Source of the DNA: a virus
Strand: one strand, 5' to 3'
Virus record (IMG/VR): IMGVR_UViG_3300028835_001016
Location: 1 to 29,011 of that record
DNA: 29,011 nt
Program-made: the position numbers and the translations under genes
Notes under the pieces: generated by a model
The model's input: the letters and a program-made list of their open reading frames with translations, nothing else
Told to the model about the DNA's origin: nothing
Database searches by the model: none
Shown here: in pieces, positions 6,805-29,011 of the stretch
Position numbering within the stretch: the stretch's first letter is position 1
How the letters are laid out: every line of letters starts with the position of its first letter

Positions 6805-6805
6805 A

Positions 6806-15513: not shown

Positions 15514-15760
15514 CTGGAGCATCCTCCTGCATGGCTTCCGCTTGCCTAGTATACCTTTTACGTACTAGCTCTACGAATAGAAAAAGCTGTGGAATACTAT
15601 ACTTTCGTATATCTCGATAGGAGTGTCCTTCACTAATCAGTAGTTCTACACTACCCGCTACTACTCCACTGAAGGTGATTTCATCGTCCCGCTCAGACCT
15701 GGAACTACTGGTAGATCTACTCCGATCTGATCTATTAGCTTCTGAACGAGACTTTTCCAC
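15410..15760 (-). CDS. Tail assembly chaperone, T-domain made by frameshift
   Basis: The frame is -1 relative to the G-type gene and is entered at the GGGAAAG site. The fused part begins VEKSRSEANRSDRSRSTSS, a basic Ser/Arg linker. A T-like domain follows (SVELLISEGHSYRDIRKYS, then IPQLFLFVELVRKRYTRQ) with a basic end. In lambda the corresponding T domain recruits the tube protein to the tape measure. The frame overlaps the G-type end by 100 bases and the tape-measure start by 104 bases. GTG 15760 could serve as a separate start, but only a weak GGGAAA precedes it. Confidence 0.75.
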   Translation of the reverse strand: MEKSRSEANRSDRSRSTSSSRSERDDEITFSGVVAGSVELLISEGHSYRDIRKYSIPQLFLFVELVRKRYTRQAEAMQEDAPDARRNHRQPKATYSSYKQSLKAGRRTSTSNKRSH

Positions 15761-16089
15761 TTTCCCACTACTGTCTCCGTAATGTTCTGCTCAATTATTA
15801 CTTCTAACAGATCGGGAACTTCTGTCGCAGGGATACGACTAGCAGGTAGGCTGATGCAGTAAGGAATTAGGAGTAGTAGTTCTTCTATTCCCTTTGCTGC
15901 TATCTCGGCGGGTTCAAGGGAGCCCTCTTCGGCTATCTTCATAAGTCTACCAAAGACTTGTGCTACCCTTGGTAAGTCTTCCAGTGAAAGAGGAGTAACA
16001 AGAACGGGGTACTCTTGTTCGCCCACCTTAATTACTACCTCTTTCCCTGGAAACAATACGTCTAACTCAGTCAGTTGATTCTCTGTCAT
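15661..16089 (-). CDS. Tail assembly chaperone, G-type
   Basis: A 142-residue protein upstream of the tape measure, matching lambda gpG in place, size and composition. The N-terminus is a beta segment (PGKEVVIKVGEQEYPVLVTP), followed by helices (LEDLPRVAQVFGRLMKIAE; AAKGIEELLLLIPYCISL; VPDLLEVIIEQNI). These chaperones bind the tape measure during tail assembly. At codons 109-110 the coding sequence contains GGGAAAG, the same slippery heptamer used in lambda G/GT. Slipping back one base there leads into the frame of the next feature. The start ATG 16089 has GAGGGA upstream. Confidence 0.8.
   Translation of the reverse strand: MTENQLTELDVLFPGKEVVIKVGEQEYPVLVTPLSLEDLPRVAQVFGRLMKIAEEGSLEPAEIAAKGIEELLLLIPYCISLPASRIPATEVPDLLEVIIEQNITETVVGKWKSLVQKLIDQIGVDLPVVPGLSGTMKSPSVE
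15760..15766 (-). promoter_or_regulatory. -1 ribosomal frameshift site GGGAAAG
   Basis: On the minus strand the zero frame reads G GGA AAG, fitting the X XXY YYZ rule and identical to the lambda G/GT heptamer. A -1 slip here joins the first 110 residues of the G-type protein to the 116-codon downstream frame, giving a fusion of about 226 residues. Lambda gpGT is of comparable size (279). The downstream frame has no good start of its own. The match in sequence, frame and position is convincing without a modelled stimulator. Confidence 0.8.
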
Positions 16090-16146
16090 GATTCCCTCGC
16101 TTTGAGTAGTCTAGCGCCAGCTAGTACTCAGTAAACGTCAGGTGGA

Positions 16147-16752
16147 TTATGTGGTGGTAGTCGTGGTCGTCGTGGTCGTCGTGGTCGTTGATGTAGTAGT
16201 CGATGTAGTAGTCGTCGATGTAGTCGTAGTAGTCGTGGCGAATGTCACGTCGAAGTAAGGACTAGTCGGATTGTTTACTACATCCGATAGTCCTTCTGCG
16301 GTAAACGACATCAAAGACCACTCATCTGAAATCAAGTTCAATGCGCCACCGGGAGACAGTTTGGCTTTATGAAACAACCAAGTCTCATTTGGCCCCGCTG
16401 GATTGTCACTCACGAACTCAACCTCATACTCCTTGTCAAGTTCCGTATTTGCAGATATCACGTTGCCGGATATACTACCCTTCAGAAACATAGCAAGGTT
16501 ACGAACGGAGAACTCATCCAGATCAAAGTTCAGGTTGTAACCGATCTCAATGGTTACTTGCTTGTCCTTGTTCCTAGTACCAGATCGAGAGGAGAAGTGA
16601 TCGAGATTCTCTTCGACTACCTCACACTCAAACCTGGGAGAGTTCCCCACATCCGTCTGACTAGCCGGGGGAGTAGTACCTACCCACGCCGCAATGCTCA
16701 CGACTCCACGCCCTAGTTTATATAGTGTAGTACTTGGGTTCTGTGCTACCAT
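16147..16752 (-). CDS. Tail tube protein with Thr-rich C-terminal tail
   Basis: A 201-residue tube protein. The beginning fits phage tubes of the lambda V type (LYKLGRGVVSIAAWVG, then SPRFECEVVEENLDHFSSR, TIEIGYNLNFDLDEF, LAMFLKGSISG). The fold ends near residue 170. The last 30 or so residues are almost only Thr with a few Ser (16150-16238), starting after FDVTFA. Tube proteins in other phages often carry an Ig-like domain at this end, displayed on the outer face, so the tail is likely exposed. The start ATG 16752 has GGAGGT eight bases upstream. No sheath gene is adjacent, consistent with a non-contractile tail. Confidence 0.85.
   Translation of the reverse strand: MVAQNPSTTLYKLGRGVVSIAAWVGTTPPASQTDVGNSPRFECEVVEENLDHFSSRSGTRNKDKQVTIEIGYNLNFDLDEFSVRNLAMFLKGSISGNVISANTELDKEYEVEFVSDNPAGPNETWLFHKAKLSPGGALNLISDEWSLMSFTAEGLSDVVNNPTSPYFDVTFATTTTTTSTTTTSTTTSTTTTTTTTTTTTT
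16150..16238 (-). repeat. Thr-rich C-terminal tract of the tube protein
   Basis: About 30 residues, mostly Thr with four Ser, coded by mixed Thr codons (ACC, ACG, ACT, ACA). Mixed codons argue that the protein composition is selected, not just a simple DNA slippage run. Confidence 0.75.
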
Positions 16753-16765
16753 GCTGCTTTACCTC

Positions 16766-17230
16766 CTATAATGCGTTGAAGTCCTCTTTGAATTGAACTG
16801 CTAGTACTTGGCCGATACCTACTACCTTCTTGTCAATGGCTGGTCTATACACTCTTGATATTTCTTCCTCAACTACTAGGTCTGCCAACCCTCCCAAGGT
16901 TTGACCATCTATAAAGATTTCCTGTCTACTAGCCTTGAGGTAAATATTGACATCCCTATTTGTCTCTCCTGCTGTTGCTGAGAGATACCAGTGCTCAATT
17001 ACTATCCTCATCTCCTGTTTGTAGATAGGCTTGCTACGCGCTCCCCTACTAGGTGCAGTGTCTAGAGTGATAGAAGGAAACTCGAAGACGTTACTACATG
17101 GCATGAAGTCTAGTCCCGGTTCTTCATCGGGATTTCGAAAGACGTACTTGATATCAAAAGGATGTCCGTTCGCAATAAGTATGCGATTCATCCTCCGCTG
17201 CACGTCTACTACTATGTCATCTCTTCGCAA
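16766..17230 (-). CDS. Tail terminator-like protein
   Basis: A 154-residue protein in the slot between gp10-like and tube genes, where the tail terminator lies. Mixed alpha/beta: an N-terminal helix (VVDVQRRMNRILIANG), strands (NVFEFPSITLDTAPS; QEMRIVIEHWYLSA), a helix (NIYLKASRQEIFIDG) and strands to the end. The start is TTG 17230, supported by AGGAAGGA seven bases upstream. The first internal ATG has GGAGG directly against it, too close for initiation. The function is assigned from order and general shape. Confidence 0.65.
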   Translation of the reverse strand: MRRDDIVVDVQRRMNRILIANGHPFDIKYVFRNPDEEPGLDFMPCSNVFEFPSITLDTAPSRGARSKPIYKQEMRIVIEHWYLSATAGETNRDVNIYLKASRQEIFIDGQTLGGLADLVVEEEISRVYRPAIDKKVVGIGQVLAVQFKEDFNAL

Positions 17231-17243
17231 TACTCTTTCCTTC

Positions 17244-17684
17244 CTATTGCATTGCGATACTCTTTCCCTGTACTAGCAAGCCTAACAACTCTACCGCTAT
17301 TTTCTCTGCTAGTTCATCCACATTAGCTTTAGCTGTTATGCCTTCCGGTGCCTGACTAGAGTATACTCTCCCTTTATTGTAAACGGTTCTTGGTCTACTC
17401 TCGGGAACACTAGGCCAGGGACGCTTTCCTATAGGACTACCTTTCTCTAGAAAGAAAGTCTGGACGCGGGGATTACTAAAGGAGTAACCACCGCCATCTT
17501 TTCTAACCGCAGTCCAACTATCTTTTGCCTTCTTCTCTCCTGAAGGAGTAGGCCGGTCGCCAACGGGTGTAGCTCTAACTACTTCTCGTCTAATTCTCGC
17601 GGCAACACTTCGAGTCAACTTACTTATTTGACCCGGAGATAGATCAGGTAGTTTCCCTGAAACATCAATAGATAGTTCTAGCAC
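17244..17684 (-). CDS. HK97 gp10-like neck protein
   Basis: A 146-residue protein resembling HK97 gp10: a short beta start (LELSIDVSG), a helix (KLTRSVAARIRREVVRATPVG), then GDRPTPSGEKKAKDSW, a hairpin (YSFSNPRVQTFFLEKGSP) and a C-terminal helix (VDELAEKIAVELLGLLV). Proteins of this family join head and tail. The start is GTG 17684, which overlaps the upstream stop as TAGTG. The gene overlaps no other downstream except for a close join to the terminator gene (13 bases). Confidence 0.75.
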   Translation of the reverse strand: MLELSIDVSGKLPDLSPGQISKLTRSVAARIRREVVRATPVGDRPTPSGEKKAKDSWTAVRKDGGGYSFSNPRVQTFFLEKGSPIGKRPWPSVPESRPRTVYNKGRVYSSQAPEGITAKANVDELAEKIAVELLGLLVQGKSIAMQ

Positions 17685-18082
17685 TATGCATACCCTAGTA
17701 CATCCACTTTCACAATGAGACCAAAGACAGGGTAGATCTTCTTGACATTATAAGTAATCCCACCCTCTACTACTAGGTCTCTAATACTAGCACCGTCTGG
17801 AACATCTGCAAACTGAAACAAGTACTGGACATCTCCTGTTGTTGTAGCCCACTGACCAGGGGGATAGATACGTCCGGCATTACTAGCACCAATTTCTTTC
17901 TCTATTCTTATGGCACTAATATCCTTAGTGTCTACATAGGTATCAACATTTACTCCATGACCTTCATCAAATACACTGTCTGTGAACTTCTTCCATGTTA
18001 CTAGGCTAGTTAAGCCCTCATCCTCAAAGAGTGTTGGAAGTATCGAATTGACTGCTCCCTGAATCTGATCAAAGATTCCCAC
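17684..18082 (-). CDS. Head-tail joining (stopper-like) protein
   Basis: A 132-residue protein assigned by position between the connector and an HK97 gp10-like protein, where head-closure proteins normally sit. It is beta-rich, with the segments LTSLVTWKKFTDS, YLFQFADVPDGASIRD and VKKIYPVFGLIVKVDVLGY. The start is GTG 18082, preceded by GGGGGAG about ten bases upstream, two bases after the previous stop. The stop codon overlaps the next start (TAGTG). Confidence 0.65.
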   Translation of the reverse strand: MGIFDQIQGAVNSILPTLFEDEGLTSLVTWKKFTDSVFDEGHGVNVDTYVDTKDISAIRIEKEIGASNAGRIYPPGQWATTTGDVQYLFQFADVPDGASIRDLVVEGGITYNVKKIYPVFGLIVKVDVLGYA

Positions 18083-18084
18083 TA

Positions 18085-18657
18085 CTACGCTACTCCCCCA
18101 GTGATTCTCTTATACCACTTTCCTACATGGGCATAGATGATGTCTAGTGAAGACAAATTGTTCTTCGATAGGTTAGGACTATCAACGCTACCAAAGAACT
18201 CTATCGCAAGTGATCCCCCTAGTTCGAACGACTTAATGGTTTGTTCTGGAAACGATAGAGGGTCCAATGATAAGATATGGTCTACTACCTGATAAGCAAT
18301 CTCACACTGAGCATTCTTGATTTCGGTAGGTGTAGTAGGAGCGTTCTCCGTAATGTCAGAGTAGTTGATGAAGTAGTCTTCATCTTCGGACACGTAGTCG
18401 TACTCGTCGTCCGTTCTCCACCATCTAGGAAACTCTAACCGCTGATCCCTACTAGCTTTTGCACCCCGCCAGGGCATGGTGTTCATCATCAGTGCAGCTA
18501 GTTTAAGTCTTTGCTCTTTCGCTGCTGTAGCTAGAGCAACGAAAACTACTACACCTGCATGTGTTGCACCATACATCGCCGGGAGGTACGCATCTAGTTC
18601 AGTAACAGTAGCGTAACTCTCACTACTACTCCCACCGATTGAAACATCAAGTGCCAT
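18085..18657 (-). CDS. Head-tail connector, adaptor type
   Basis: A 190-residue protein with the layout of phage head-tail connectors of the DnaT-like group. Near the N-terminus it has SYATVTELDAYLPA; then helices with KEQRLKLAALMMN and MPWRGAK; then LEFPRWW; and later EIKNAQCEIAYQVVDHIL. These connectors join the portal ring to the tail. The start ATG 18657 has CGGAG eight bases upstream. It directly follows the capsid gene and is followed two bases later by another joining protein. No portal gene is seen in the window, so the portal this ring binds must be encoded elsewhere. Confidence 0.8.
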   Translation of the reverse strand: MALDVSIGGSSSESYATVTELDAYLPAMYGATHAGVVVFVALATAAKEQRLKLAALMMNTMPWRGAKASRDQRLEFPRWWRTDDEYDYVSEDEDYFINYSDITENAPTTPTEIKNAQCEIAYQVVDHILSLDPLSFPEQTIKSFELGGSLAIEFFGSVDSPNLSKNNLSSLDIIYAHVGKWYKRITGGVA

Positions 18658-18675
18658 AGCACTGCTCCGCTACGC

Positions 18676-19638
18676 TTAGGTAGTAGTCGTTGTGGTCGTA
18701 GTGGTAGTGGACGGAAGCCCAGTATCGGTGAAGTTCTCAACCACTACTGCTGCTTGCGGCTCTTCCATCTTCACGTCACAACGCATGGTCAGTACTATGA
18801 TAAGGACTCTACGCCGGATATCCTTATCAGTCTCGATCATGATGTCTCTCTGGATTCCCCAAATGATGTTCTTGGGGTAGGAGAGAAACAACTTATGATC
18901 CGGCATCATTGCAATCGGTGTCACCGGAGTCCCATATGCAAACATGGGAGTGAAGGCACTAACCTTCTCATCACCAAGGCTAGTAGCGCGAGTAGCGATA
19001 CTATCCCTGTACTCCATCTCCGCATGGTGACTCACATAGTGCCGCATGGCCGCTCTGTTCCGCAGATACCTAGTAGGCATCCTCTGCATCGCAAGTTTGA
19101 ACAGAGTCTTGGTGATGTTAGTAATAGCACTACCATCAACAGTGTTAGCAGTAGGCGTAAGCGCAAGCATACCGTCTACTAGGGCGAGATATTCATCGGA
19201 CGATCCGGTGTCGCCAAGTACTACTAGCTCTTCCAGATCCAGGGCCGCTCTGCCCGCGATCATGCTCATGATGGTCTGCTCTAGTCCACCGCGCTCGATG
19301 TTGTCCTCAAGCACATCATAGGGTAGCCATACTTCAGCGATGATCTCCTCTGTCTCCAACTCGATAGTACCAAGATCCGGTCGTGCTCTCTTGGAGGCGT
19401 CGAGTGCTGTGCCACTAGCCGGGGCTGCTCTCAGGATACGACTACCGAACCCGATCTTTTCGATCTTCCGCTTGGGTGCGTTCATGCGTACTACCCGACA
19501 ATCATTGATGATAGTCGGTTGATCGATAATCATACGGACAAAGGCATTAGCCTGTTCGGTGTTGAGATAGCCACCACTTGCTACTAGGTTAGCAACAGCG
19601 ATGTCTGCTTTCTCTACTATGCTACGGTTGTCAAGCAT
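18676..19638 (-). CDS. Major capsid protein, HK97 fold, with Thr tail
   Basis: A 320-residue shell protein. Residues 60-120 read as the E-loop/N-arm and P-domain strands (KIGFGSRILRAAPASGTALD, EEIIAEVWLPYDVLEDNIE). A P-domain spine-like helix follows (TIMSMIAGRAALDLEELVVL), then GDTGS. The A-domain lies in the second half (FAYGTPVTPIAMMPDHKLFL, NIIWGIQRDIMIETDKDIR). Position after protease and scaffold agrees. Start ATG 19638 has a perfect AAGGAGG. The C-terminus ends in a run of ten threonines (plus-strand positions 18679-18711), which is not part of the fold and resembles tails on other virion proteins here. Confidence 0.88.
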   Translation of the reverse strand: MLDNRSIVEKADIAVANLVASGGYLNTEQANAFVRMIIDQPTIINDCRVVRMNAPKRKIEKIGFGSRILRAAPASGTALDASKRARPDLGTIELETEEIIAEVWLPYDVLEDNIERGGLEQTIMSMIAGRAALDLEELVVLGDTGSSDEYLALVDGMLALTPTANTVDGSAITNITKTLFKLAMQRMPTRYLRNRAAMRHYVSHHAEMEYRDSIATRATSLGDEKVSAFTPMFAYGTPVTPIAMMPDHKLFLSYPKNIIWGIQRDIMIETDKDIRRRVLIIVLTMRCDVKMEEPQAAVVVENFTDTGLPSTTTTTTTTTT

Positions 19639-19696
19639 TTCTAAAACCTCCTTGAATGTTGAGTGTACTACTGCTTCACATAACCGAAACTACTAG

Positions 19697-20767
19697 CTAT
19701 GCCTGCTTACGGAAAAGAACCCCGCTGAATAGTTTCTCCTCTTTCTCATCAGCTTCGGAAGTATCGTCGTCATCACCTTCTGATTTCATAGACAGGGTAG
19801 TATTGTGGATATCCTCCATACCCTTCGTGATAACTTCAACACTATCCTTCATTGACTTGTTAGAGTCTTTCACATCCTGGCCGACTTCCTTGATGGATGC
19901 TACTAGTGAGTTTCCAAAGTTGGTAAGAGTCTCATTGAACTTATCCACAAAGCCATCGAAGTCAACCTTGTCTTTGTTCTTACCGGTATCATCATCATCG
20001 CCACTACTAGCAGCCGCAGCAGCCGCAGCGTCATCAGCAACTTTCTTATCCGCAGCTTCCTTCTCTGCCTTCTCCCTAGCAGCTTTCTCGTCGGCGGTCT
20101 CTTCCTTCACCGTAAGGTCTACTACTAGAGTCGGATGGTCTTCGGCCTTTACACCGAGCGCTACCTTGCCATCATCCAACGTCTCCAGTACTATTTCCGC
20201 GAAAGTCTTAAAGTTGTCGATTGCTGTCAGGATGGTAGTCTTCCTGAAACTAGCTTCCGCGTTCTCTTGCCGCATGGCTCCCCCTACTACGTCTGCCATG
20301 GCATACAGTTCGGTATAGAGATTATCCATAGTAGCATAATCCACCGCTGCCTTGGCATCCATCATAAGAGTGCCGCTCTCGCTCTCTCCCTCTGCTAGGT
20401 CACCTAGTACAAAGAGAATCCCTTCCACGGCTTCATGCTTTACTACTACCGCAGACTTGGGATCAATCTTCGATGGGTGAATCTGAGGGTACGCCGTGAA
20501 AGTAGTATATGCTTTCTTACTTCTCTTGTCGATACCCTCCAGCTTCGAGATGTTCTCCTCAGAAACATCGTTTCTGATTAGAACGCTCTGGACTACTTTG
20601 TTCGCCATGCCTAGTACCTCCTTTAACTTTTCGCTCTTCATTACTTTGAAGGGAGCGCGGTTCGCACCGTGTTTCACTAGGGATACGTACTCCACGGTCG
20701 GGTTTACCATAAAAGTCACAGTGTCTTCTATGGTAGTAGTTACCTCTTTCAGTTTTTTATTTGCCAT
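19697..20767 (-). CDS. Scaffold-like acidic head protein
   Basis: A 356-residue protein between the protease and the capsid gene, where a scaffold is expected. The N-terminus holds a segment typical of XkdF-associated proteins (VSLVKHGANRAPFKVMK, about residues 28-44). The centre is mixed. Residues of about 220-260 form a charged Ala/Lys/Glu helix with a run of alanines and an acidic GDDDD patch, followed by a coiled-coil-like helix and a second acidic patch near the end. This composition, low in aromatics and rich in Ala, Lys, Asp and Glu, is usual for scaffolds. The start ATG 20767 has GGAGTAGGA upstream. Direct evidence of a scaffolding role is limited to context and composition. Confidence 0.7.
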   Translation of the reverse strand: MANKKLKEVTTTIEDTVTFMVNPTVEYVSLVKHGANRAPFKVMKSEKLKEVLGMANKVVQSVLIRNDVSEENISKLEGIDKRSKKAYTTFTAYPQIHPSKIDPKSAVVVKHEAVEGILFVLGDLAEGESESGTLMMDAKAAVDYATMDNLYTELYAMADVVGGAMRQENAEASFRKTTILTAIDNFKTFAEIVLETLDDGKVALGVKAEDHPTLVVDLTVKEETADEKAAREKAEKEAADKKVADDAAAAAAASSGDDDDTGKNKDKVDFDGFVDKFNETLTNFGNSLVASIKEVGQDVKDSNKSMKDSVEVITKGMEDIHNTTLSMKSEGDDDDTSEADEKEEKLFSGVLFRKQA

Positions 20768-20771
20768 GTTC

Positions 20772-21701
20772 CTACTCCAGAATTACTCGGTGTCGATGAT
20801 CTAGTTGTTCCTCAGTAGCAGTACCATGCTTGATTATATGACTATGCTCCAGTACTACATCAGTCTTCCCTGAAACAATTACACCATCATTGTCTAGATT
20901 GATTACGAAGGTGTGTTCATGCGGGGGGAGAATATCTTCTACATTCTCTTCTGTAATACCAGAGATTTGTTTGGCAACTTCTACTAGTACTCTTGCTACA
21001 ACTTTCTCACTAGTCCCATAAAATGAGAATCCGTTTAGCTCTCCTGATTTAACATCGGCCCATATATCATCTATACACTTGACTCCCATCACCCAGGCAC
21101 CGTCTACCCATGGGTCCCATCCCTCTCTAGCTATGAAGCTCTCAACTACTACACAACCTGATTCTTCTAGACTATGTTGTATGTCAATCTTCTCAACTTT
21201 GTTACTAGCTAGAAACTCCCATGCTGCTTTCTCTACATCGTCCTCACTCATGGTCTCGCCATCAGTGTCTACTCTATTTGGAACATAGACTTCGCCATAT
21301 ACTACCTGATCTTCCTCATTCTCTGCCTTATGAAGATTACCGATCTCGACTATTACTAGCTCTTCTTTGTCGGCACCTATGGCTTTCCTATGTTTCTCAA
21401 TATGAGACTTCACCGATGCAGATGCTTCTACTCCACTCCTAGCACCTTGCGCTGCTGCATAAGCAGCGTTCAGTCCTCCCTTGTGTAAGTACATAGTTCC
21501 AGACGTGTAGAATCCATCATCGCCTACTTCTCCACCTACTACATGATGATGGGGATACTTCCAGGTAGATTTCTTTCCTGCTTCACCTTTGTCAGCATAA
21601 GCATTGCGTGGGAGTTTAGTTTTCTTAACACTACCCCAACTAGGTTCGGAGTCTGCTAGAGTAGAATTATGGGAAAGGGCTTTTCGTACTAGCTCTAACA
21701 T
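20772..21701 (-). CDS. XkdF-like prohead serine protease
   Basis: Prohead maturation protease of the XkdF/S78_2 type, expected to cleave scaffold and capsid precursors inside the prohead. Residues 20-110 form a domain often fused to phage head proteins (WGSVKKTKLPRNAYAD, YPHHHV, GGLNAAYAAAQGARSG). The protease core spans about 130-235: VVYGEVYVPNRVDTDG, a histidine in DIQHSL (H176), GAWVMGVK, and the C-terminal GELNGFSFYG with the presumed catalytic serine S226. A histidine-rich tail follows (HEHTF, EHSH, HRHRV). The start ATG 21701 has AGGAG seven bases upstream. The stop lies four bases before the scaffold-like gene, the usual order of protease, scaffold, capsid. Confidence 0.85.
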   Translation of the reverse strand: MLELVRKALSHNSTLADSEPSWGSVKKTKLPRNAYADKGEAGKKSTWKYPHHHVVGGEVGDDGFYTSGTMYLHKGGLNAAYAAAQGARSGVEASASVKSHIEKHRKAIGADKEELVIVEIGNLHKAENEEDQVVYGEVYVPNRVDTDGETMSEDDVEKAAWEFLASNKVEKIDIQHSLEESGCVVVESFIAREGWDPWVDGAWVMGVKCIDDIWADVKSGELNGFSFYGTSEKVVARVLVEVAKQISGITEENVEDILPPHEHTFVINLDNDGVIVSGKTDVVLEHSHIIKHGTATEEQLDHRHRVILE

Positions 21702-21761
21702 AAAGGATCTCCTAAATAGAATACTTAGATTCCTTATGCTTACTAGAGCTAAACGATCAAG

Positions 21762-22004
21762 TCAAGGAGTGTTTTTCTTACGTGACTTTCTTGTGTTCGG
21801 GGTAGGTAGTCGTTCGGAGAAGTACCGCTCAAACTCCATACGGTAAACTCTTTTGTCCGGCGTGATTCTGATCTGTTCTCGATGATTCAAAACGTATAGG
21901 TGAGACCTACTACATTGCAATATTATTAATGATTCCGGTATGCTATAAGATGCTTTCAGGGATAGTCCTACACTTGGCAGTACTACCTCTTCAAAATAAG
22001 ACAT
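21762..22004 (-). CDS. Unknown 80-residue basic protein
   Basis: No family recognised. The N-terminal half is hydrophobic with alternating strands (SIPESLIILQCSRSHLYVL). The C-terminal half is basic (RITPDKRVYRMEFERYF, then RKSRKKNTP), as in small nucleic-acid-binding proteins. The start ATG 22004 has only a modest AGGT upstream. It is the first gene after the terminator and promoter region, which would suit a regulator or a small head protein, but that is a guess from position. Confidence 0.55.
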   Translation of the reverse strand: MSYFEEVVLPSVGLSLKASYSIPESLIILQCSRSHLYVLNHREQIRITPDKRVYRMEFERYFSERLPTPNTRKSRKKNTP

Positions 22005-22073
22005 GAGATTTACCTACAATAAAATCTTTGAAACTATGGTAAAGGTATTGTACTACTTGTCTTTGGATTGTTA

Positions 22074-22102
22074 CGTGTAGCAGGTATTTGGAGGGGTGTC
22101 AA
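22074..22102 (-). promoter_or_regulatory. Possible promoter for the head gene block
   Basis: A perfect TTGACA (22102-22097) lies directly after the terminator T-run. A 17-base spacer follows, then TACACG (22079-22074) with TG one base before it. The -10 is poor (three of six). An alternative weaker pair is TTTACC/TATTGT further downstream, nearer the 80-residue gene. Some restart of transcription is expected here because the terminator should stop the upstream message. Confidence 0.35.
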
Positions 22103-22103
22103 A

Positions 22104-22140
22104 CAAAAAAAGCCCCACGGCTTCGGGGGTCCATGGGGCT
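22104..22140 (-). terminator. Intrinsic terminator after the helicase gene
   Basis: On the minus strand, the stem AGCCCCA ... TGGGGCT (22140-22134 with 22117-22111) is perfect over seven pairs. It has further GG/CC pairing inside the loop and is followed at once by seven T residues (22111-22105). This is a textbook rho-independent terminator for leftward transcription. It separates the replication block from the head block. Confidence 0.85.
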
Positions 22141-22155
22141 CTGGGTAGGAACAGA

Positions 22156-22178
22156 TGACAGCGGGAAGTTGGCTGTCA
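22156..22178. repeat. Perfect 7-bp inverted repeat with 9-bp spacer
   Basis: TGACAGC (22156-22162) and GCTGTCA (22172-22178) flank GGGAAGTTG. It lies 10 to 30 bases downstream of the predicted start at 22187. It may be an RNA hairpin or a protein-binding operator that would block the promoter; both readings fit. Confidence 0.55.
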
Positions 22179-22193
22179 AGGGAGTACAACTAC

Positions 22194-22222
22194 TATATAC
22201 TAAAGTCTTTTGAGAATGTCAA
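22194..22222 (-). promoter_or_regulatory. Sigma70-like promoter in the helicase-downstream gap
   Basis: Minus-strand TTGACA (22222-22217), a 17-base spacer and TATATA (22199-22194). The predicted start is near 22187. It begins just after the helicase stop codon and is followed within about 50 bases by a strong terminator, so its main product should be short. Spacing and -35 are consensus; the -10 matches four of six positions. Confidence 0.55.
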
Positions 22223-22230
22223 GGAGTTTT

Positions 22231-23544
22231 TCAGGCCACGACAAAATCTTCACTATCCATGTCTGAATCTATGTTCTGCTCTAGTAGCTCTTCTTCTTCT
22301 ACTCTACCAACGATTATACTCTTTTGGTGAATCTGAGTAGTCTTCATATTAAACTCTATTCGCATACTACAAAACTCACCGTCTCTCCCCTTAGTAAGTC
22401 TAAGTATGCGCGTCTGGACCGGATTACTACTATTCATATCTTCCTTGCGCTCGAACTCAAAAGATATCACCATACTAGCTATTTGAGGTATAGCAAAGCC
22501 ACCACCTACTCCTTCCAGCTTCCCGGCATCCTTCTTAAGGTATTGATAAGTAGCTAGCACAGGGATACCCTCAGTCAAAGCTAGGTTCTTAAGAGAAGTA
22601 GCAACGTCCATGTTCCTTTCCCACCAGGACTTCGCTGTAGCCTTTAGTAGATAAGCACCATCTACTATAGCCATGTCCGGTTTCAATTCCTTGACTAGTA
22701 TAATAAAATCGTCTACGTTAGGAAACATCCCGCCAGGAAGCATATTGAAGTAGTTGCCTTGCTCATCTTCAATGATGATACCATTTGCGATAATCTCTTC
22801 CGCTCGTTTTCTAGCAAAATAAGATAGTCTCCCTTTCTTTAGATCATCAGTGGAGAAGTGGCCTTCCATAGCTAGTACTCGTCTCGCTGATTGTAAGTTC
22901 GGCATCTCAGTGGAAAGTACTAGTATTTTCTTGCCTGTCTGAAAGCTAGAGTATCCTATCTTGAAAGCTAGATAGGTTTTTCCTACTCCTGTTTGTCCTA
23001 CTATAATAATGAAGTCTCCATCTTGAGCACCACCGGAGACTCTATCTAGATAAGGAAAGCCGAAGGAGACTCCCGGTATCCCTGGCTTTTGCTGAACGTA
23101 GTCATGGCGCTGTAGTACTTCTTGCTGGACATCTCGAAGTTTCACAGTACGTTTAGTAGAATAGGATTCTCGGATCTCTAAGTACTTAGCACCCATCTTA
23201 TTTAGAGCTTCTTCTATCTCTTGATTCTCTAGATGGGTCCTCATATCTAATAGGCAACCACGCAGATCATCATACCGTTTACGCTGCTTTACTTCATCCA
23301 GCCAGTAGTCGAGATACTCATCAGGTAGTTCATCAAAGATAGCCGGGGATTGACCTATAGTCCTACTAAGCGTCTCTAGCCTAGGGTATCTCCCATAGTC
23401 ACCCACAAACTCTCTAATGAAACGATAGGCACCTACTTCATCATCCTTAAAATGTTCTTCTGATATCAAGTTATCAATAAGAGTAGAAAATGGAGTCTCA
23501 GTATCAATCAAGGATTTAAACAAACCGAATCCAATACTAGGCAC
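22231..23544 (-). CDS. DnaB-like replicative helicase
   Basis: RecA-fold hexameric DNA helicase of the DnaB type, expected to unwind DNA at the phage fork. GTG 23544 is chosen as start: GGAGG lies nine bases upstream and it gives the eight-base GTGCCTAG overlap seen at two other joints in this block. The result is 437 residues; the frame also allows TTG 23586 and ATG 23568. The N-terminal 130 residues are helical and DnaB-N-like. Then come Walker A GQTGVGKT (183-190), a Walker B strand (MAIVDGAYLL, about 291-300), a glutamine sensor (ATYQ, about 331-334) and an arginine-finger-like TKGRDGEF (about 384-391). The C-terminus is acidic. The length fits the family. It is the last gene before the terminator at 22104-22140. 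Confidence 0.88.
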   Translation of the reverse strand: MPSIGFGLFKSLIDTETPFSTLIDNLISEEHFKDDEVGAYRFIREFVGDYGRYPRLETLSRTIGQSPAIFDELPDEYLDYWLDEVKQRKRYDDLRGCLLDMRTHLENQEIEEALNKMGAKYLEIRESYSTKRTVKLRDVQQEVLQRHDYVQQKPGIPGVSFGFPYLDRVSGGAQDGDFIIIVGQTGVGKTYLAFKIGYSSFQTGKKILVLSTEMPNLQSARRVLAMEGHFSTDDLKKGRLSYFARKRAEEIIANGIIIEDEQGNYFNMLPGGMFPNVDDFIILVKELKPDMAIVDGAYLLKATAKSWWERNMDVATSLKNLALTEGIPVLATYQYLKKDAGKLEGVGGGFAIPQIASMVISFEFERKEDMNSSNPVQTRILRLTKGRDGEFCSMRIEFNMKTTQIHQKSIIVGRVEEEELLEQNIDSDMDSEDFVVA

Positions 23545-23935
23545 TAGTATGACCCTCCGCTTCCTCATCTGCTTTACGGTCAGCAATTATTACTATAGCC
23601 TTGGGTAGTTCTTCCAGATCCCGGTTCTTTATCAAGGTTCTCTTTACTAGGTCTAGGAATAGAAGTTCGAACTTCCGTACTTCCTGTTCTTTCAAAGCAA
23701 CAAACTGATCCAGAATCATACTTGCCATCACACTAAACTTCTGTCTAGCCTCAACTACTATCGTCTCGATATAGTCCTCTATCTGAGAGTCTAGCATGTC
23801 GGGATCTAAACCAAAGTAGTTAGTCTTTCTGACTTCCTCTTGAATCTTAGGTTTGACATCAGAGAAGTACTCCCTTATATAGTACTCCATAATACCTTGC
23901 AGCTTTGCTTCTTTACTTACTTCCTTCTCTGCCAT
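23537..23935 (-). CDS. Unknown helical protein between loader-like and helicase genes
   Basis: A 132-residue, mainly helical protein with no recognised family. It contains long amphipathic helices (IEDYIETIVVEARQKFSVMA; FVALKEQEVRKFELLFLDLV) and an acidic tail. The start ATG 23935 has a GGGGGA element upstream. The gene overlaps the loader-like gene by 23 bases at its 5' end and the helicase start by eight bases at its 3' end. Position alone suggests it acts with the helicase. Confidence 0.72.
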   Translation of the reverse strand: MAEKEVSKEAKLQGIMEYYIREYFSDVKPKIQEEVRKTNYFGLDPDMLDSQIEDYIETIVVEARQKFSVMASMILDQFVALKEQEVRKFELLFLDLVKRTLIKNRDLEELPKAIVIIADRKADEEAEGHTSA

Positions 23936-24548
23936 TTTGATCCCCCGTAATTACTACCCGTTTAGAGTTGTCATCGCTAAACAATTCAAAAGCAGTATAC
24001 CCAAAAATGTCTACTATCCCTGCGCTTATACCTAGTGCTTTCTTTGCATCTATCTTAGCTGGAATACTTCTCACAAACATATTGAACACAGTTGCATGGC
24101 CCCGATATTTCCTTCTATGTAGTATGTTTGCGATAGCTCCCTTTTTCCACTTCAACTCAGGATTAGCAGGGTCGCAGTAGTTGATAAGTAGTAGGTCAGC
24201 ATATTCTATGATGTCTCGCTTATCTCCTTCAGGGTCATTTATAGCTTCAGTGAGATCATCTACGTCTACAGCTATAGCCCGTTTACCTGTAGTGAACACA
24301 TAGCTAGCTAGTACATAATCGAATAGCTTCCGCATATAAATAGTACTCTCCGATATACAGATGATCCAATTACGACTACCCGTAGTCCATTGTACTAGGC
24401 TTTCAATCTGCTTCTTCAAGTGATCGGTATGTGGACTATAGTAGATAAAGGAATCCTGCTCGAACCCTCTCAGGTTCAGGAATCCATATCCCCATTGCCA
24501 GCGATCTGCACTTGAGTCTACTTCCCAACTAGGAACTACATCAATCAT
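23913..24548 (-). CDS. DnaC-like helicase-loader relative lacking Walker A
   Basis: ATG 24548 is preferred over the upstream in-frame TTG 24563 because AGGA lies seven bases before it; this gives 211 residues. The order of elements resembles a DnaC/DnaA-type AAA+ module. A strand is followed by a helix (NWIICISESTIYMRKLFDYV) where the P-loop belongs, then a basic turn and strand (GKRAIAVDVDDLTEAI). A Walker B-like strand follows (YADLLLINYCDP), then a helix and sensor-1-like strand (RKYRGHATVFNMFV). The P-loop consensus is absent (SESTIYMRK in its place), and the Walker B acidic pair is replaced by NYCD. It is one gene upstream of a DnaB-like helicase, the usual setting for a loader. My reading is a degenerate, probably non-ATPase loader or adaptor; an unrelated fold remains possible. 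Confidence 0.55.
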   Translation of the reverse strand: MIDVVPSWEVDSSADRWQWGYGFLNLRGFEQDSFIYYSPHTDHLKKQIESLVQWTTGSRNWIICISESTIYMRKLFDYVLASYVFTTGKRAIAVDVDDLTEAINDPEGDKRDIIEYADLLLINYCDPANPELKWKKGAIANILHRRKYRGHATVFNMFVRSIPAKIDAKKALGISAGIVDIFGYTAFELFSDDNSKRVVITGDQNGREGSK

Positions 24549-24705
24549 TGAAGATTCCTGCAAAGACTTCCTTTTTGGCTTCCTCCCACATACTAGAGCA
24601 GACTGCTACCGCCTGATCTTGCTCATCGCCTTCCTCTATCCGAACAGGAATACATCGTTTCATCCACTCGGCTCTAGTCTCAGTACTAGGGCTTGGTGTT
24701 GGCAT
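24541..24705 (-). CDS. 54-residue protein with RCIP...AVAVC...W motif
   Basis: A short gene found by direct translation. It starts at ATG 24705 with an AGGGGG element just upstream and ends at TGA 24541. The protein begins MPTPSPSTETRAEWMKRCIP, continues with an acidic turn (EEGDEQDQAVAVC) and then SSMWEEAKKE. Short phage proteins commonly show this pattern: a Pro-rich start, [ER]xWM/FxxRCIP, an acid-Gln turn, AVC and an aromatic residue. Their function is not known to me, and the two cysteines are typical of the group. It sits snugly between its neighbours: two bases after the upstream stop and overlapping the downstream start by eight bases (ATGATTGA). That packing supports a real gene. Confidence 0.72.
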   Translation of the reverse strand: MPTPSPSTETRAEWMKRCIPVRIEEGDEQDQAVAVCSSMWEEAKKEVFAGIFND

Positions 24706-24707
24706 AA

Positions 24708-24899
24708 CTACCCCCTATCGTGTCTAGCTTTCAACTTCTCCCTGATTCTACTATCTTCGCTTTCTTGTAAGGCATCGAGTCTATTCTTGATAATATTCAT
24801 AGCCTCACTCACAGTCTCCTCCGGTAGTTCTGTTTCACCTTCCGTTCTCTGCTTCTCAGCCAGGACGTGTACTATAGTCAATGCTTCTCTGAAATCCAT
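24708..24899 (-). CDS. Small helical unknown protein, 63 residues
   Basis: No family recognised. Predicted almost wholly helical and highly charged (ETVSEAMNIIKNRLDALQE), compatible with a short coiled coil. The start ATG overlaps the upstream stop codon in a TAATG arrangement, a sign of coupled translation. The next gene starts two bases after its stop. Confidence 0.65.
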   Translation of the reverse strand: MDFREALTIVHVLAEKQRTEGETELPEETVSEAMNIIKNRLDALQESEDSRIREKLKARHDRG

Positions 24900-25423
24900 T
24901 AGTAGTCCTCCATCTGTCTCTCGTAATCAGCTTGCATTTCTTCTTCAGTAGGTGTATGACTTTTCTTCTTAGTCTTCACTACTACAGTAGCAGTACTAAC
25001 TACCGGTTCGATTATATCCTCTCTACCTGCTCTATCTATAGCAGACAGAATAGTTTCTCGACATATAAGAAATTCCAACAGACTAGGCCGGTCGCCTAGT
25101 AGTACACGTTTACGATTCTTTAAGGTGTGATGATCCTGGAGTTTGATGTAGTCCCAATGAACTACTAGGTTCTTAATGGTTTGATAGATATCTTTTTCAG
25201 GCCAACCACTACTCCTGCATACCTTGATAAACCCATTCAGCATACCCCGTACTTGAGTAGTTACAGGTGGTGGAGTACCATAGTTAGTCTCTTTGAAACT
25301 ACTACTAAATATCCGAATGAGTTTATCAGGAGATGCAGGGGAGTTGTAAAAACTATGTAGTCTTCTTTTTCTCCCCCGCTCTGACTTCTCCATTGCTGCA
25401 AGGATAGCTTCCCTGCTATCCAT
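24899..25423 (-). CDS. Unknown basic protein, possible replication accessory
   Basis: The frame opens at a TTG (25438), but ATG 25423 is preferred because AGGAG lies five bases before it; this gives 174 residues and an eight-base overlap with the gene upstream. The N-terminus is strongly basic (SERGRKRRLH). The middle is helical, with aromatic patches (GMLNGFIKVCRSSGW, VVHWDYIKLQ). The C-terminus has a basic stretch (VVVKTKKKSH) and an acidic end. It lies a few genes upstream of a helicase-loader-like protein and a DnaB-like helicase, which suggests a replication role such as origin or primase-like binding. That is inference; no motif proves it. Confidence 0.7.
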   Translation of the reverse strand: MDSREAILAAMEKSERGRKRRLHSFYNSPASPDKLIRIFSSSFKETNYGTPPPVTTQVRGMLNGFIKVCRSSGWPEKDIYQTIKNLVVHWDYIKLQDHHTLKNRKRVLLGDRPSLLEFLICRETILSAIDRAGREDIIEPVVSTATVVVKTKKKSHTPTEEEMQADYERQMEDY

Positions 25424-25784
25424 TATGCTCCTTGCCAATCTCTCGTATCCTTACTTCATGAGGGAGTCGCAATTGCTCCTCTAGGAACTCTACCTCATAG
25501 TCGATAGCCTCTTGCCTAGTCTTCATCATGACAGGTAGTATAAGACCGGTCTTCAGGTACTTGATCTTCCAGCCATGATCCTTGTTACAGTAGTACACGT
25601 CACTCACTCGATCTATCTTCAGATCTGCCAGTGTGGATAGTACTTGCTGCATGAAGTCGTTGTGTATGTTGACTATCTCTTTGCCATCAGGACTTATCCT
25701 GAGTACTACTCGTCTCCTGGGTAAGTCCATGCACTTCTCACATCGGCACTTCTTAGAATGCGCCTGGAACGGTCTCCTTAACAT
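25416..25784 (-). CDS. Unknown 122-residue protein with CxCxxC motif
   Basis: No family recognised. A cysteine cluster near the N-terminus (KKCRCEKCMD, about residues 11-20) could bind a metal, though only three cysteines lie together. A beta hairpin with ISPDGKEI follows, resembling the core of the DUF2997-like protein just upstream. The middle has a further beta region (VYYCNKDHGWKIKYL), and the C-terminal half is helical and charged. The start ATG 25784 has GGGAGGGAG directly upstream. The 3' end overlaps the next gene by eight bases (ATGGATAG). The 109 bases before this gene hold a weak GCAAC/GTTGC inverted repeat and no gene I can support. Confidence 0.7.
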   Translation of the reverse strand: MLRRPFQAHSKKCRCEKCMDLPRRRVVLRISPDGKEIVNIHNDFMQQVLSTLADLKIDRVSDVYYCNKDHGWKIKYLKTGLILPVMMKTRQEAIDYEVEFLEEQLRLPHEVRIREIGKEHNG

Positions 25785-25893
25785 ACTCCCTCCCCGAAGT
25801 ACTAGCCTCTCCCCGCAACCTTAGTAGTTGCACACCAGTAAGCCCTCAACTCCATACTAAATTACCGGAGAGCAAAGACATTTTCAGTCAAGA

Positions 25894-26088
25894 CTAGATC
25901 TTATTAGTAATGACACTGACATCTTCCTGGTAGTACTCAGGGGTGCGCTCATTGCCTATCGTTCCTGCCTGGAAGATCGCAGTCTCCAGGTCTTCAGTAA
26001 GAGTCTCACAACCCTCTCCGACTACCCCTTCGACTTTAATCTCAGTCTCACTACCATCAGGACTGATCTTTATCAGTAGTTTCCCCAT
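25894..26088 (-). CDS. DUF2997-like small protein
   Basis: A 64-residue protein with the DUF2997 pattern: a short beta hairpin around ISPDG (KLLIKISPDGSETEIKVEG), then a glycine/cysteine turn (GEGCETLTEDLE) and a helix (LETAIF). The family is small, of unknown function, and often found next to DUF1257. The start ATG 26088 has GGAGGAGG about nine bases upstream, lying inside the previous gene. The next gene also carries an ISPDG segment (VVLRISPDGKEIV), a shared motif worth noting. The family call rests on motif shape. Confidence 0.65.
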   Translation of the reverse strand: MGKLLIKISPDGSETEIKVEGVVGEGCETLTEDLETAIFQAGTIGNERTPEYYQEDVSVITNKI

Positions 26089-26284
26089 TGTCTACTACCT
26101 CCTCCGGTAGTACATGCAATCGCACGTAGGTTTTGGCTCCCTCTTCTGTTTGAGGAACCGTCACTTTTGCTATCTCACTCTCCACAGATAGTAACGACAT
26201 AGCCATATCATCTACTTTGATGGCACCGCTTTTGATAGTCGTCACTACTACTGTTGCCGGATACACTTTCTTCACTGTGGACAT
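26057..26284 (-). CDS. Small unknown protein, 75 residues
   Basis: No family recognised. Beta-rich N-terminal half (VYPATVVVTTIKSGAIKV) and an acidic C-terminus. The start is ATG 26284, with GGAGGG upstream. Its 3' end overlaps the next gene by 32 bases, so the two are probably translated together. It sits between the DUF1257-like and DUF2997-like genes and may work with them, but this is inferred from position only. Confidence 0.7.
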   Translation of the reverse strand: MSTVKKVYPATVVVTTIKSGAIKVDDMAMSLLSVESEIAKVTVPQTEEGAKTYVRLHVLPEEVVDNGETTDKDQS

Positions 26285-26308
26285 AGTACTTCCCTCCGTT
26301 CCGTTCAG

Positions 26309-26695
26309 TTACGGCGTGTGTACTTCCAGATAGACATAGCCTTCGGTGTCAACCTCTTGACTTGCTATCACACCGCCTAGCAATTGAGACTCTTGTTTGC
26401 ACTTCTCAGTCATGTACTCTCTCGTGAGTAGTGCACCGGTTTTCCCGGCAATCTCACAGATAGGATTGTAGTAGTTATCCATCGCCACTTGGTACTCTCC
26501 TTCTACATTAGTCTCGACTATAGCAAGTTTACCTTCACCGTCTTGAGTAGTGATAACAAACTCGCACTTATCAATATCGATGTACTGGTCATGCATGGAG
26601 TTCTTGTCTACTACCTTCAATCCCATAGACTCTGCTACTTCCCGTAGTTTAGCAAGGTCTGCGATCTTGGACTTCCCTTTACTCTCGTGAGACAT
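26309..26695 (-). CDS. DUF1257 / Ycf35-like protein
   Basis: A 128-residue protein. The layout matches the DUF1257 (Ycf35) family: an MSH start, a helix ending in a 'DL..L...AESMGLKVV' pattern, a central beta region (YIDIDKCEFVITTQDGEG), a tyrosine-containing segment (MDNYYNPICEI) and a late helix leading to GYVYLEV at the end. The family occurs in plastids, cyanobacteria, other bacteria and phages, and its biochemical role is not established. The start is supported by AGGGGGTG upstream of ATG 26695. The DUF2997-like gene two genes downstream strengthens the call, because the two families are often neighbours. The assignment is by eye from motif order. Confidence 0.65.
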   Translation of the reverse strand: MSHESKGKSKIADLAKLREVAESMGLKVVDKNSMHDQYIDIDKCEFVITTQDGEGKLAIVETNVEGEYQVAMDNYYNPICEIAGKTGALLTREYMTEKCKQESQLLGGVIASQEVDTEGYVYLEVHTP

Positions 26696-26713
26696 TCGTT
26701 CACCCCCTTTCTA

Positions 26714-27523
26714 CTAGTCCATTCGGACCATCCGAACTTCTTGTGGTTTAGTCTCTTCCATTTCCAAGTCACCCGACCCTGTATTAGGTGAGACAGTTAC
26801 TAGCTGATTAATTCTCCGCTTGCTCAGAAACGCTTGCCTATTGTAGAATCTCCAGGTATCACTATCTCCCCCAAAGTATGCTTTGATCTCCGGTTTCTTC
26901 AGGAAACGCCCTGCTGCTTTGAAGTACCAATCATCAACACAGCCTTGCTCGAATCCTAGTGGTTTGATTCCTACTACCCATGATCCATTTGGGTCCATCA
27001 AAAAGAAGTAGGAGAAATACTCTTTTGGAATCCCGAACCCACTAGTAGAACTAAATACCTTTACTATAGGCATAGCTGACATATAGGTTTCCTTACTCAC
27101 TGGCGCTGCTAGCATAGTAGCCCGAGCAACTCGCCCCGGTTGTGACATCAATTCATCTGCCTCATTAACTACTAGCCCACGCTTCTTTGCTTCAAACAGG
27201 TGATGCTCTAGTGAATCACTATCTGCAATGAAGCAATGAAACTTAAAGTTCATATTGTCTTTTCTAATACCGCCTCCCCGATAGGCAAATTTGTACTTGT
27301 ACATAGTCTCATCCTTTCGTTCGCACTCTTTTGTACTACCCTCTTGATTACTTGCGTCTGCCTTCGCCCGTAACTCCCCTCTACCAATTCTATCAAGTGC
27401 TTCCCCGATTGCCGATATAACACCCAGGAACACTCCATCAATTGCACCTGATAGTAGCTGACTCCCTCTACTAGCATGTATAGCCAATCTTTGGAGTGTA
27501 TCTCTGTAGGTAGTATTAGCCAT
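26714..27523 (-). CDS. Unknown 269-residue protein
   Basis: I do not recognise this family. The start is ATG at 27523, with GGAG eight bases upstream. Residues 1-50 could form an amphipathic helix with a hydrophobic stretch (GAIDGVFLGVISAIG). A charged linker follows, then a folded-looking part from about residue 75 rich in aromatic residues, including FHCFIADSD, YFSYFFLMDPNGSW and CVDDWYFKAAGRFLKK. The C-terminus is charged. It is the first gene after the promoter at 27585-27613 and comes 18 bases before a DUF1257-like gene. In cellular genomes DUF1257 genes often sit near an AAA+ ATPase, but no Walker motif is visible here. It is too short for a portal protein and has no portal-like layout. 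Confidence 0.75.
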   Translation of the reverse strand: MANTTYRDTLQRLAIHASRGSQLLSGAIDGVFLGVISAIGEALDRIGRGELRAKADASNQEGSTKECERKDETMYKYKFAYRGGGIRKDNMNFKFHCFIADSDSLEHHLFEAKKRGLVVNEADELMSQPGRVARATMLAAPVSKETYMSAMPIVKVFSSTSGFGIPKEYFSYFFLMDPNGSWVVGIKPLGFEQGCVDDWYFKAAGRFLKKPEIKAYFGGDSDTWRFYNRQAFLSKRRINQLVTVSPNTGSGDLEMEETKPQEVRMVRMD

Positions 27524-27584
27524 CCACTCTTCTCCAATGCTTTAGCTAGTACTTGCTTTCTTGACTTTTTTGAATACATAACTT

Positions 27585-27613
27585 ACCATATCAAAACTGG
27601 CACACTTTGTCAA
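27585..27613 (-). promoter_or_regulatory. Sigma70-like promoter with extended -10
   Basis: On the minus strand a perfect -35 TTGACA (27613-27608) is followed by a 17-base spacer and TATGGT (27590-27585). A TG one base before the -10 makes it an extended -10. Predicted transcription starts near 27578, about 55 bases before the next gene at 27523. It lies just after the terminase stop codon, so the small-gene and replication block can be expressed separately from the terminase. Confidence 0.6.
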
Positions 27614-27631
27614 TAGTTATTTTCTACTAGG

Positions 27632-29011
27632 TCAAGAATAAAGTGGCGCTCTACCACTTGTCGGTCTTCTTGTAGTGCTACCCCTATCTCCCTTTCTTGG
27701 TATAGGTACATTAAGGGGTAGTACTTTTGGTGGCCCCTTCAACCTATAACTAGATCTCTTATTGCTCAAAGTAAATACTACTCCAGCAACACAGTCCGAT
27801 AGGTCTTTACTCTCTCCTTCTGGATGATCGATCTTGCCAGTAGTATTGTCTTGGTCTAGTATTGGCATCTCATCGAGTACTACCTGATGACGCGCAATAT
27901 ATACTCGCTCCTCTTTAATCCCGAATTTAGTTTCAATATAGGCATCTGGTTTTGCATCCACAGAAAGTATGCTAGTATTGACATTGCGACTTCGAAAGTA
28001 CTGTAAAGTACTAGCCGATTGATGTCTATCCATAGTAAGCCAGTATACAGGTATGTAGTCTGATATAACACTAACAAGGCCACGAAGCATGTGGATCTCG
28101 ATCTCACCGCCATCTGGTGGTACTACCTGGAGTAGTCCAGGGATACCAAAGACTGGGAGTGCTCCTTTTGGTTGTCGACTAAATTCTCCCGTATCCTTAT
28201 TGTATACCAGTCGGTAGTTTACTTCTCTATTACCTATAGCGTGTCCAATACCTACTCCCGCACAATCTCCCGATATAGCTAGATCTATATGTACTGCAAA
28301 AGGACCGTGAGGAGATAGTCTTCTCAAAAAGGTACTATTGATTAAATCCTGAATCTCACTGCCAATTCTCAGTTCTACTGTATCCTGAGTAAATATCTGC
28401 TCTTTGCCATAAATAGACTCGTACTTATTAAAAGAATTCTTTATGTAGTCAGGATTTATAAACCGACTAGTCCTGGTAACTGCTACTCCTGCTATGTCTC
28501 GTAAAGATCCAATCAGATCTTTATCAAATGCTACCCTATGCTCGACAGGCACTTCTAGTATGTTGTCTGTATCATCACCTACTACTTCCGGTCTCTCATC
28601 ATAAACACCACCAGCAGCATTCTCTGTCGGCTTCCTGACAAAAAACAACTTCCCGGAGTACTTCTTACGCATGAGAGATCCGTCCTTATTTTGGAAGGAC
28701 TCCCATTGCGCCATATGCATGACAAAGATGTTAGGATTTACTAATGCTTCTCTCTCCTTCTTATCAATGAAGTCATTTTCGTAGTTAGCACTACTAATCA
28801 AATATAGCTTCCCTGGTAGTCTACCTAGCTCAGCAAACCGGGATTCCATACGTCTAAGGATAGTACGGTATAGAGTCTCCGCTTGATCATACTCACCCTC
28901 TCCCTGCCTAACATTCCTTTTTGACTTCTTAACTTTACTCATGAAGTTCATCTCATCGATGACTGCTCCAAACACGCTCATACCTAGAGCAGAAGTATCG
29001 GCGCTGCTTAT
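27632..29011 (-). CDS. terL: Terminase large subunit, 5' end outside window
   Basis: Motor and nuclease that packages DNA into the prohead. The frame stays open to the window edge, so the N-terminus with Walker A is missing and 459 codons are visible. Numbered from the methionine at 28981: an ATPase Walker B-type segment (FGAVIDEM, residues 4-11) opens the sequence, followed by a coupling-like motif (LYLISSANY, about 59-67). An RNase H-like nuclease domain starts near residue 225, with acidic residues expected to bind metal at D233 (HIDLAISGD), D318 (TMDRHQS) and D393/D396 (SKDLSDCVAG). The tail is basic and low in complexity. The window-edge codons read well into the Walker B region, so the annotated methionine is internal. 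It is followed by a 108-base gap with a promoter. The family assignment is firm; the packaging strategy cannot be told from this. Confidence 0.93.
   Translation of the reverse strand: MSSADTSALGMSVFGAVIDEMNFMSKVKKSKRNVRQGEGEYDQAETLYRTILRRMESRFAELGRLPGKLYLISSANYENDFIDKKEREALVNPNIFVMHMAQWESFQNKDGSLMRKKYSGKLFFVRKPTENAAGGVYDERPEVVGDDTDNILEVPVEHRVAFDKDLIGSLRDIAGVAVTRTSRFINPDYIKNSFNKYESIYGKEQIFTQDTVELRIGSEIQDLINSTFLRRLSPHGPFAVHIDLAISGDCAGVGIGHAIGNREVNYRLVYNKDTGEFSRQPKGALPVFGIPGLLQVVPPDGGEIEIHMLRGLVSVISDYIPVYWLTMDRHQSASTLQYFRSRNVNTSILSVDAKPDAYIETKFGIKEERVYIARHQVVLDEMPILDQDNTTGKIDHPEGESKDLSDCVAGVVFTLSNKRSSYRLKGPPKVLPLNVPIPRKGDRGSTTRRPTSGRAPLYS

Follow-up and report, generated by a model that had tools for sequence, protein, structure and literature searches.

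Type-I 3'UTR-derived small RNAs, of which DapZ and MicL are examples, have an internal promoter. Among phages, the OOP RNA of lambda is a short, terminated RNA. One established mode of small RNA action relies on unpaired C-rich motifs directed at G-rich start regions, as in sX13 and the UCCC motifs of S. aureus (PMC3771888). For two phage small RNAs, PreS of lambda (~88 nt) and VpdS of VP882, targets and Hfq dependence have been reported (review PMC12197685). In the PalpB-tB system, which operates with AlpA, a promoter is followed by a short leader, an intrinsic terminator and downstream genes; AlpA uses residues up to H142 (PMC9371919).

Here we describe a phage locus that shares some features with each of these systems. 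It lies in an IMG/VR virus record of 29,011 bases without end repeats (the whole of this stretch is called the window), and contains a promoter (P1), a C-rich motif at the predicted 5' end of a short RNA (box A), an intrinsic terminator and a second promoter (P2). As in type-I 3'UTR-derived small RNAs, an own promoter at the 3' end of the upstream unit is combined with a shared intrinsic terminator and a conserved 5' end. Unlike DapZ and MicL, the RNA unit is a phage gene with a C-rich box A; the likeness drawn here is one of layout, not of sequence, Hfq binding or target. With sX13 of the Xanthomonadaceae and the S. aureus UCCC RNAs it shares a predicted unstructured 5' part, mostly unpaired C-rich motifs and potential G-rich start-region targets, but sX13 forms three stable stem-loops and is linked to polA, whereas the phage unit has one stable hairpin common to all members. 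Like PreS and VpdS it would be a short phage-encoded RNA, and the trans action on mRNAs during infection that is known for those two would have its counterpart here; it differs from them in coming from other phages and in being known from sequence alone. The order of promoter, short leader, intrinsic terminator and then genes also recalls lambda PR' with 6S RNA and Q, and PalpB-tB with AlpA. From these the locus is set apart by a second conserved promoter past the terminator, an unconserved P1 spacer and the lack of an identified Q-type protein (ten early proteins, Pfam).

Results

The minus strand carries all long genes assigned in the window, in the order early/replication block, DnaB-like helicase, 226-base gap, 80-aa protein and head genes. 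Beyond the 80-aa gene, the head and tail block comprises a head maturation protease, a probable scaffold, the major capsid protein (MCP) and tail genes. Among named phages, the capsid proteins related to that of the window (Stenotrophomonas DLP_5, Vibrio, Rhodobacter RcZahn and others) show less than 60% identity to it, and the genomes of these phages, among the best matches listed, measure ~80-110 kb, so that the window is probably a fragment of a larger genome. A search of bacterial genomes with the MCP found no relative. Many gene products of the window end in poly-threonine tails (~T5 to T13 or longer, at times followed by V, I or A), among them the major capsid protein, the major tail protein with an Ig-like domain, and tail assembly and tail proteins. 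Such tails, which may be a glycosylation tag or a product of repeat slippage, also occur in three related phages: G001 (L064, L065), G002 (L066) and G003 (L055).

The original prediction had read a TTGACA-17-TATATA promoter, a hairpin with a 7-bp stem and an intrinsic terminator, in this order, on the minus strand of the gap, and all three were confirmed at the positions given in Table 1. The -35 box of P1 starts 8 nt past the helicase stop codon, and the -10 box of the window matches the consensus at just 4 of 6 positions. The 84-nt RNA folds at -29.7 kcal/mol (z -4.7), a stability equalled in none of 200 shuffles; the isolated 31-nt hairpin reaches z -5.8 and the 50-nt 5' part z -3.5. The terminator loop is C-rich, with five C. 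The further claim that the RNA holds no translated frame was borne out, as its sole ATG opens an 11-codon frame that runs through the terminator and has no Shine-Dalgarno sequence; by inspection, this frame is not maintained across the differing lengths and sequences of the relatives. In a generic scan of window positions 14000-29011, promoter- and terminator-like matches were no commoner than in shuffles, and comparison with relatives was therefore needed to decide. On its own, the window is weak evidence for the RNA unit.

Table 1. Features of the window, with the basis of each assignment.
Feature	Position	Strand	Basis
DnaB-like helicase, final gene of the replication block	22231-23586	-	phrog_19, E 3e-43
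P1 promoter: -35 TTGACA 22222-22217, 17-nt spacer, -10 TATATA 22199-22194	22194-22222	-	sequence and relatives
Predicted small RNA, ~81-84 nt, start at G22187 or A22185, end in T tract	22105-22187	-	promoter and terminator positions, fold, relatives
Box A, ACTCCCTTG, candidate seed at the very 5' end of the RNA, mostly unpaired	22177-22185	-	relatives, shuffles
5' hairpin: stem TGACAGC 22178-22172 with GCTGTCA 22162-22156, loop CAACTTCCC	22156-22178	-	folding
Intrinsic terminator: 12-bp stem 22142-22131 with 22120-22109, loop ACCCCCGAAG, T7 22111-22105	22105-22142	-	scan, folding
P2, TTGACA-17-TACACG, TG before -10 (extended -10), putative head operon start	22074-22102	-	relatives; function inferred
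80-aa HTH_17-like protein, first gene past P2	21762-22004	-	HTH_17 profile in relatives
Genes for poly-threonine-tailed products	18676-19638, 16147-16752, 8981-11209, 4921-5529, 1087-2703, 494-1078, 21-482	-	translations

Protein searches gave five distinct, very divergent but syntenic phage contigs (L049, L002, L010, L011 and L012), which with the window make up the six phages of all counts below; L013 is near-identical to L012. Compared with the window, identity is 54-66% in the helicase and 81-89% in the capsid protein. The order P1, box A, terminator, P2 and HTH gene is common to the six. P1 (TTGACA, 17-18 bases, TA-box) stands shortly behind the helicase gene in 6/6, and in all relatives ACTC follows 7-10 bases beyond the TA-box, then a stretch of ~80-95 bases and then the terminator. 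A GC-rich hairpin leading into a T-rich tail is likewise present in 6/6; the T tract of L012 is interrupted (CCCTTTCGCTTTTT) in a layout otherwise as in the other relatives. That promoter- and terminator-like sites equal those of shuffled sequence in the scanned half of the window would speak for a chance resemblance, but conservation in six phages at one locus effectively refutes this reading, which we find barely credible. The same conservation supports the predicted self-contained, short, non-coding transcription unit, and very probably the unit is transcribed and under selection.

Pairwise identity among the six phages was then compared element by element. It was 100% in the -35 box of P1, 62% in the -10 box and 33% in the spacer; 30% in the bases between the -10 box and box A (discriminator); 72% in box A, or 83% leaving out L012; and in P2 94% in the -35 box and 29% in the spacer. 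Box A is a near-invariant ACTCCCTT(G/A) just past the -10 box of P1. ACTCCC occurs in 5/6 phages at a constant offset and the 8-mer ACTCCCTT in 4/6, counts that were reached in 0/3000 shuffles; these were mononucleotide shuffles that do not model relatedness, and the spacer identity shows that neighbouring unconstrained bases have drifted almost to chance. In minimum-energy folds box A is unpaired in the window and L049, and weakly paired or variable in the others. In the five phages whose terminator could be delimited (that of L012 was not), C makes up 30-44% and G 12-19% of the 5' part of the RNA.

The original prediction had also pictured a hairpin before the terminator and proposed a test for compensating changes in both stems; of the two, only the terminator stem recurs in the relatives. 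Terminator stems of the relatives are 11-18 bp long and differ in sequence at equal position, and pairing is kept through many pair changes (CG to TA and GC to CG, counted from the loop, between the window and L049); the terminators aligned poorly with MAFFT. Whether the first stem is conserved had been set beforehand as a test that could refute the prediction, and none of the five relatives has the 7-bp stem. Of their 5' parts, those of L002 and L010 fold at close to random stability, L049 and L011 show modest folding, and L012 does better with a different hairpin. By sequence comparison, the conserved features are the promoter, the ACTCCCTT 5' end, low G with high C, the terminator and their position, without a reading frame.

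If the locus were operon punctuation only, the terminator would close the replication operon and insulate P2, and the P1 RNA would be functionless. The terminator does sit exactly on the replication/head operon boundary, and a scan for hairpin-plus-U sites ranked it strongest in the window and in L055; also in keeping with punctuation, no target among phage gene starts and no 5' structure was seen to be conserved. A terminator alone, however, requires no preceding promoter, whereas all six phages retain P1, its -35 box unchanged, and the transcribed box A is conserved. We hold punctuation alone to be an unlikely account.

We asked how specific the unit is to this locus. In 819 kb of related phage DNA, searched on both strands, an exact-TTGACA promoter with a strong terminator 45-130 nt downstream was found in this gap in five phages and at one site elsewhere, in L048; the scan passed over L012 on account of its broken T tract. 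With a 5/6 -35 box, a dozen further units appear elsewhere in the same DNA. The pattern of P1 plus ACTCCCTT hit four contigs in IMG/VR, three of them the RNA-unit locus; the fourth, L053, has neither the neighbour genes nor a terminator past the match. In bacterial genomes the pattern gave six scattered matches with differing surroundings, four of which were scanned with Rfam without a hit. Among P1-like sites of the phages box A was found only at the RNA unit, and a role as a repeated DNA operator was rejected. Rfam covariance models had no match to the window at gathering score, and the one match in the relatives at E up to 1, to an unrelated miRNA model, lies outside the RNA unit (L012:1843-1911). 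No matches were returned for the exact window hairpin sequence in IMG/VR, nor by blastn for the RNA-unit region against phages and plasmids or for the L049 RNA against phages, and the stretches examined upstream of the head genes of distant MCP relatives held no exact-TTGACA promoter-terminator unit. A second promoter-terminator unit was seen at L063:7101-7206 (+) of record G001 (TTGACA-17-TATAAG, hairpin of -22 kcal/mol, RNA of ~75 nt). It lies on the strand opposite the genes and overlaps the start of gene 6241-7140, a candidate antisense RNA.

P2 follows the terminator in 6/6 with TTGAC(A/T), 17/18 spacing and TGn before a TA/CA box. The HTH gene accompanies the RNA unit at every locus and was found by sequence only at RNA-unit loci. 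Its product is 63-80 aa long across the phages. The HTH_17 profile matched 4/5 aligned members (best E 1.4e-6) and gave no match to the window protein itself at E 0.1; sequence search with the HTH protein found no named phage at E 0.01. It is possible that this protein regulates the replication/head switch. In L049, the HTH gene has in its leader a repeat of AAAGTATTTAC with 20-base spacing (L049:6484-6514), possibly an operator for the HTH protein. As a Q-like antiterminator the protein was rejected, being too small, and profile search gave no solved structure.

If the RNA were the leader of an attenuated late operon, a constitutive P1 would yield transcripts that stop at ~82 nt until a Q/AlpA-like antiterminator or an RNA element permits read-through into the HTH and head genes, and the short RNA would be a by-product, as with lambda PR'/6S RNA. 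Promoter, short leader and strong terminator do indeed precede ~20 kb of structural genes in the same orientation, a layout that matches the AlpA/Q systems (PMC9371919), and box A could be an initially transcribed element instead of a seed. Against this, P2 lies past the terminator in 6/6, so that read-through is not needed. The P1 spacer, site of Q/AlpA binding elements, is only 33% identical; the initially transcribed region has no conserved -10-like pause element, box A (ACTCCCTT) not being -10-like; the HTH protein is too small for a Q/AlpA-type ring protein; and the Pfam scan of ten early-region proteins found no antiterminator in a window that is possibly a fragment. The antitermination role suggested earlier is a live rival, but the pause and binding element tests speak against a Q/AlpA-type leader, and we consider it unlikely. 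Antitermination through pairing of box A with the 5' arm of the terminator was rejected as not general: by inspection it is possible in L002, L010, L011 and L012 (GGGAG in the arm) and not in the window or L049.

An origin transcript, a primer or an OOP-like RNA next to the helicase gene was also considered. The unit adjoins replication genes, and lambda OOP RNA is comparable (review PMC12197685). Yet GC skew runs monotonically through the site without a turn, box A is unrepeated and a search gave no iteron-like array, and a replication RNA appears very improbable.

Finally, we compared the predicted RNAs with phage gene starts. The whole 5' region, in six phages, gave no gain over shuffled RNAs (best group global p 0.61). 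For the first 16 nt the best group was the head protease (global p 0.055), where the window itself ranks badly, at 0.93. The phages' own RNAs paired with phage gene starts no better than RNAs swapped in from relatives. The 5' end of the L049 RNA is 10/11 complementary to the ribosome-binding site and start of the HTH gene, that of the window is not; and in the window the best box A partner, with a 7-nt match, is the ribosome-binding site GGGGAGGGAGTATG of a small early protein (25416-25784, minus strand). These candidates, namely the small early gene, the head protease and the L049 HTH start, are suggestive singly and did not exceed controls. Since the phage gene-start tests were negative, targets, if any, are more likely host than phage. 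Predicted pairings are unspecific, as a C-rich RNA fits any Shine-Dalgarno sequence. Of the functions first proposed, an assembly-related RNA found no support, and a regulatory RNA is the best reading even though the tests on phage gene starts gave no target.

Discussion

We give about an even chance that the RNA is a trans-acting small RNA with a 3'UTR-style type-I layout. In the proposed mechanism, the sigma-70 type P1 directly behind the last replication gene would produce an RNA of ~82 nt, ending at the terminator that would also end the replication (helicase) mRNA. This RNA would open with ACUCCCUU(G) and stay C-rich and G-poor as far as the terminator, whose loop is C-rich too. Most likely it would act in trans, its C-rich stretches pairing with mRNAs of the host, and perhaps with some of the phage, at G-rich ribosome-binding sites. 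The terminator would also part the replication operon from a head operon starting at P2. Transcription, the exact start, mRNA pairing and targets of the predicted RNA are what we infer from this arrangement. It is doubtful that the unit represents a new phage small RNA family, fixed at the replication/head boundary in a clade of so far uncultured phages, whose anti-Shine-Dalgarno-like 5' ACUCCCUU and C-rich loops would silence translation of the host or of early phage genes when the head operon is turned on.

Comparatively supported phage small RNAs are few in uncultured phages, and this unit comes in six natural variants, with a defined 5' box and a position, at the boundary of early and late genes, that lends itself to testing. 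Judged by comparison of these variants, the unit credibly adds a new phage small RNA to a kind already known. Provided that it is transcribed and has a function, it would offer a concise example of a phage RNA maintained for the sake of its 5' end as most of the remainder drifts, and a clue to the way in which this clade keeps replication apart from head expression.
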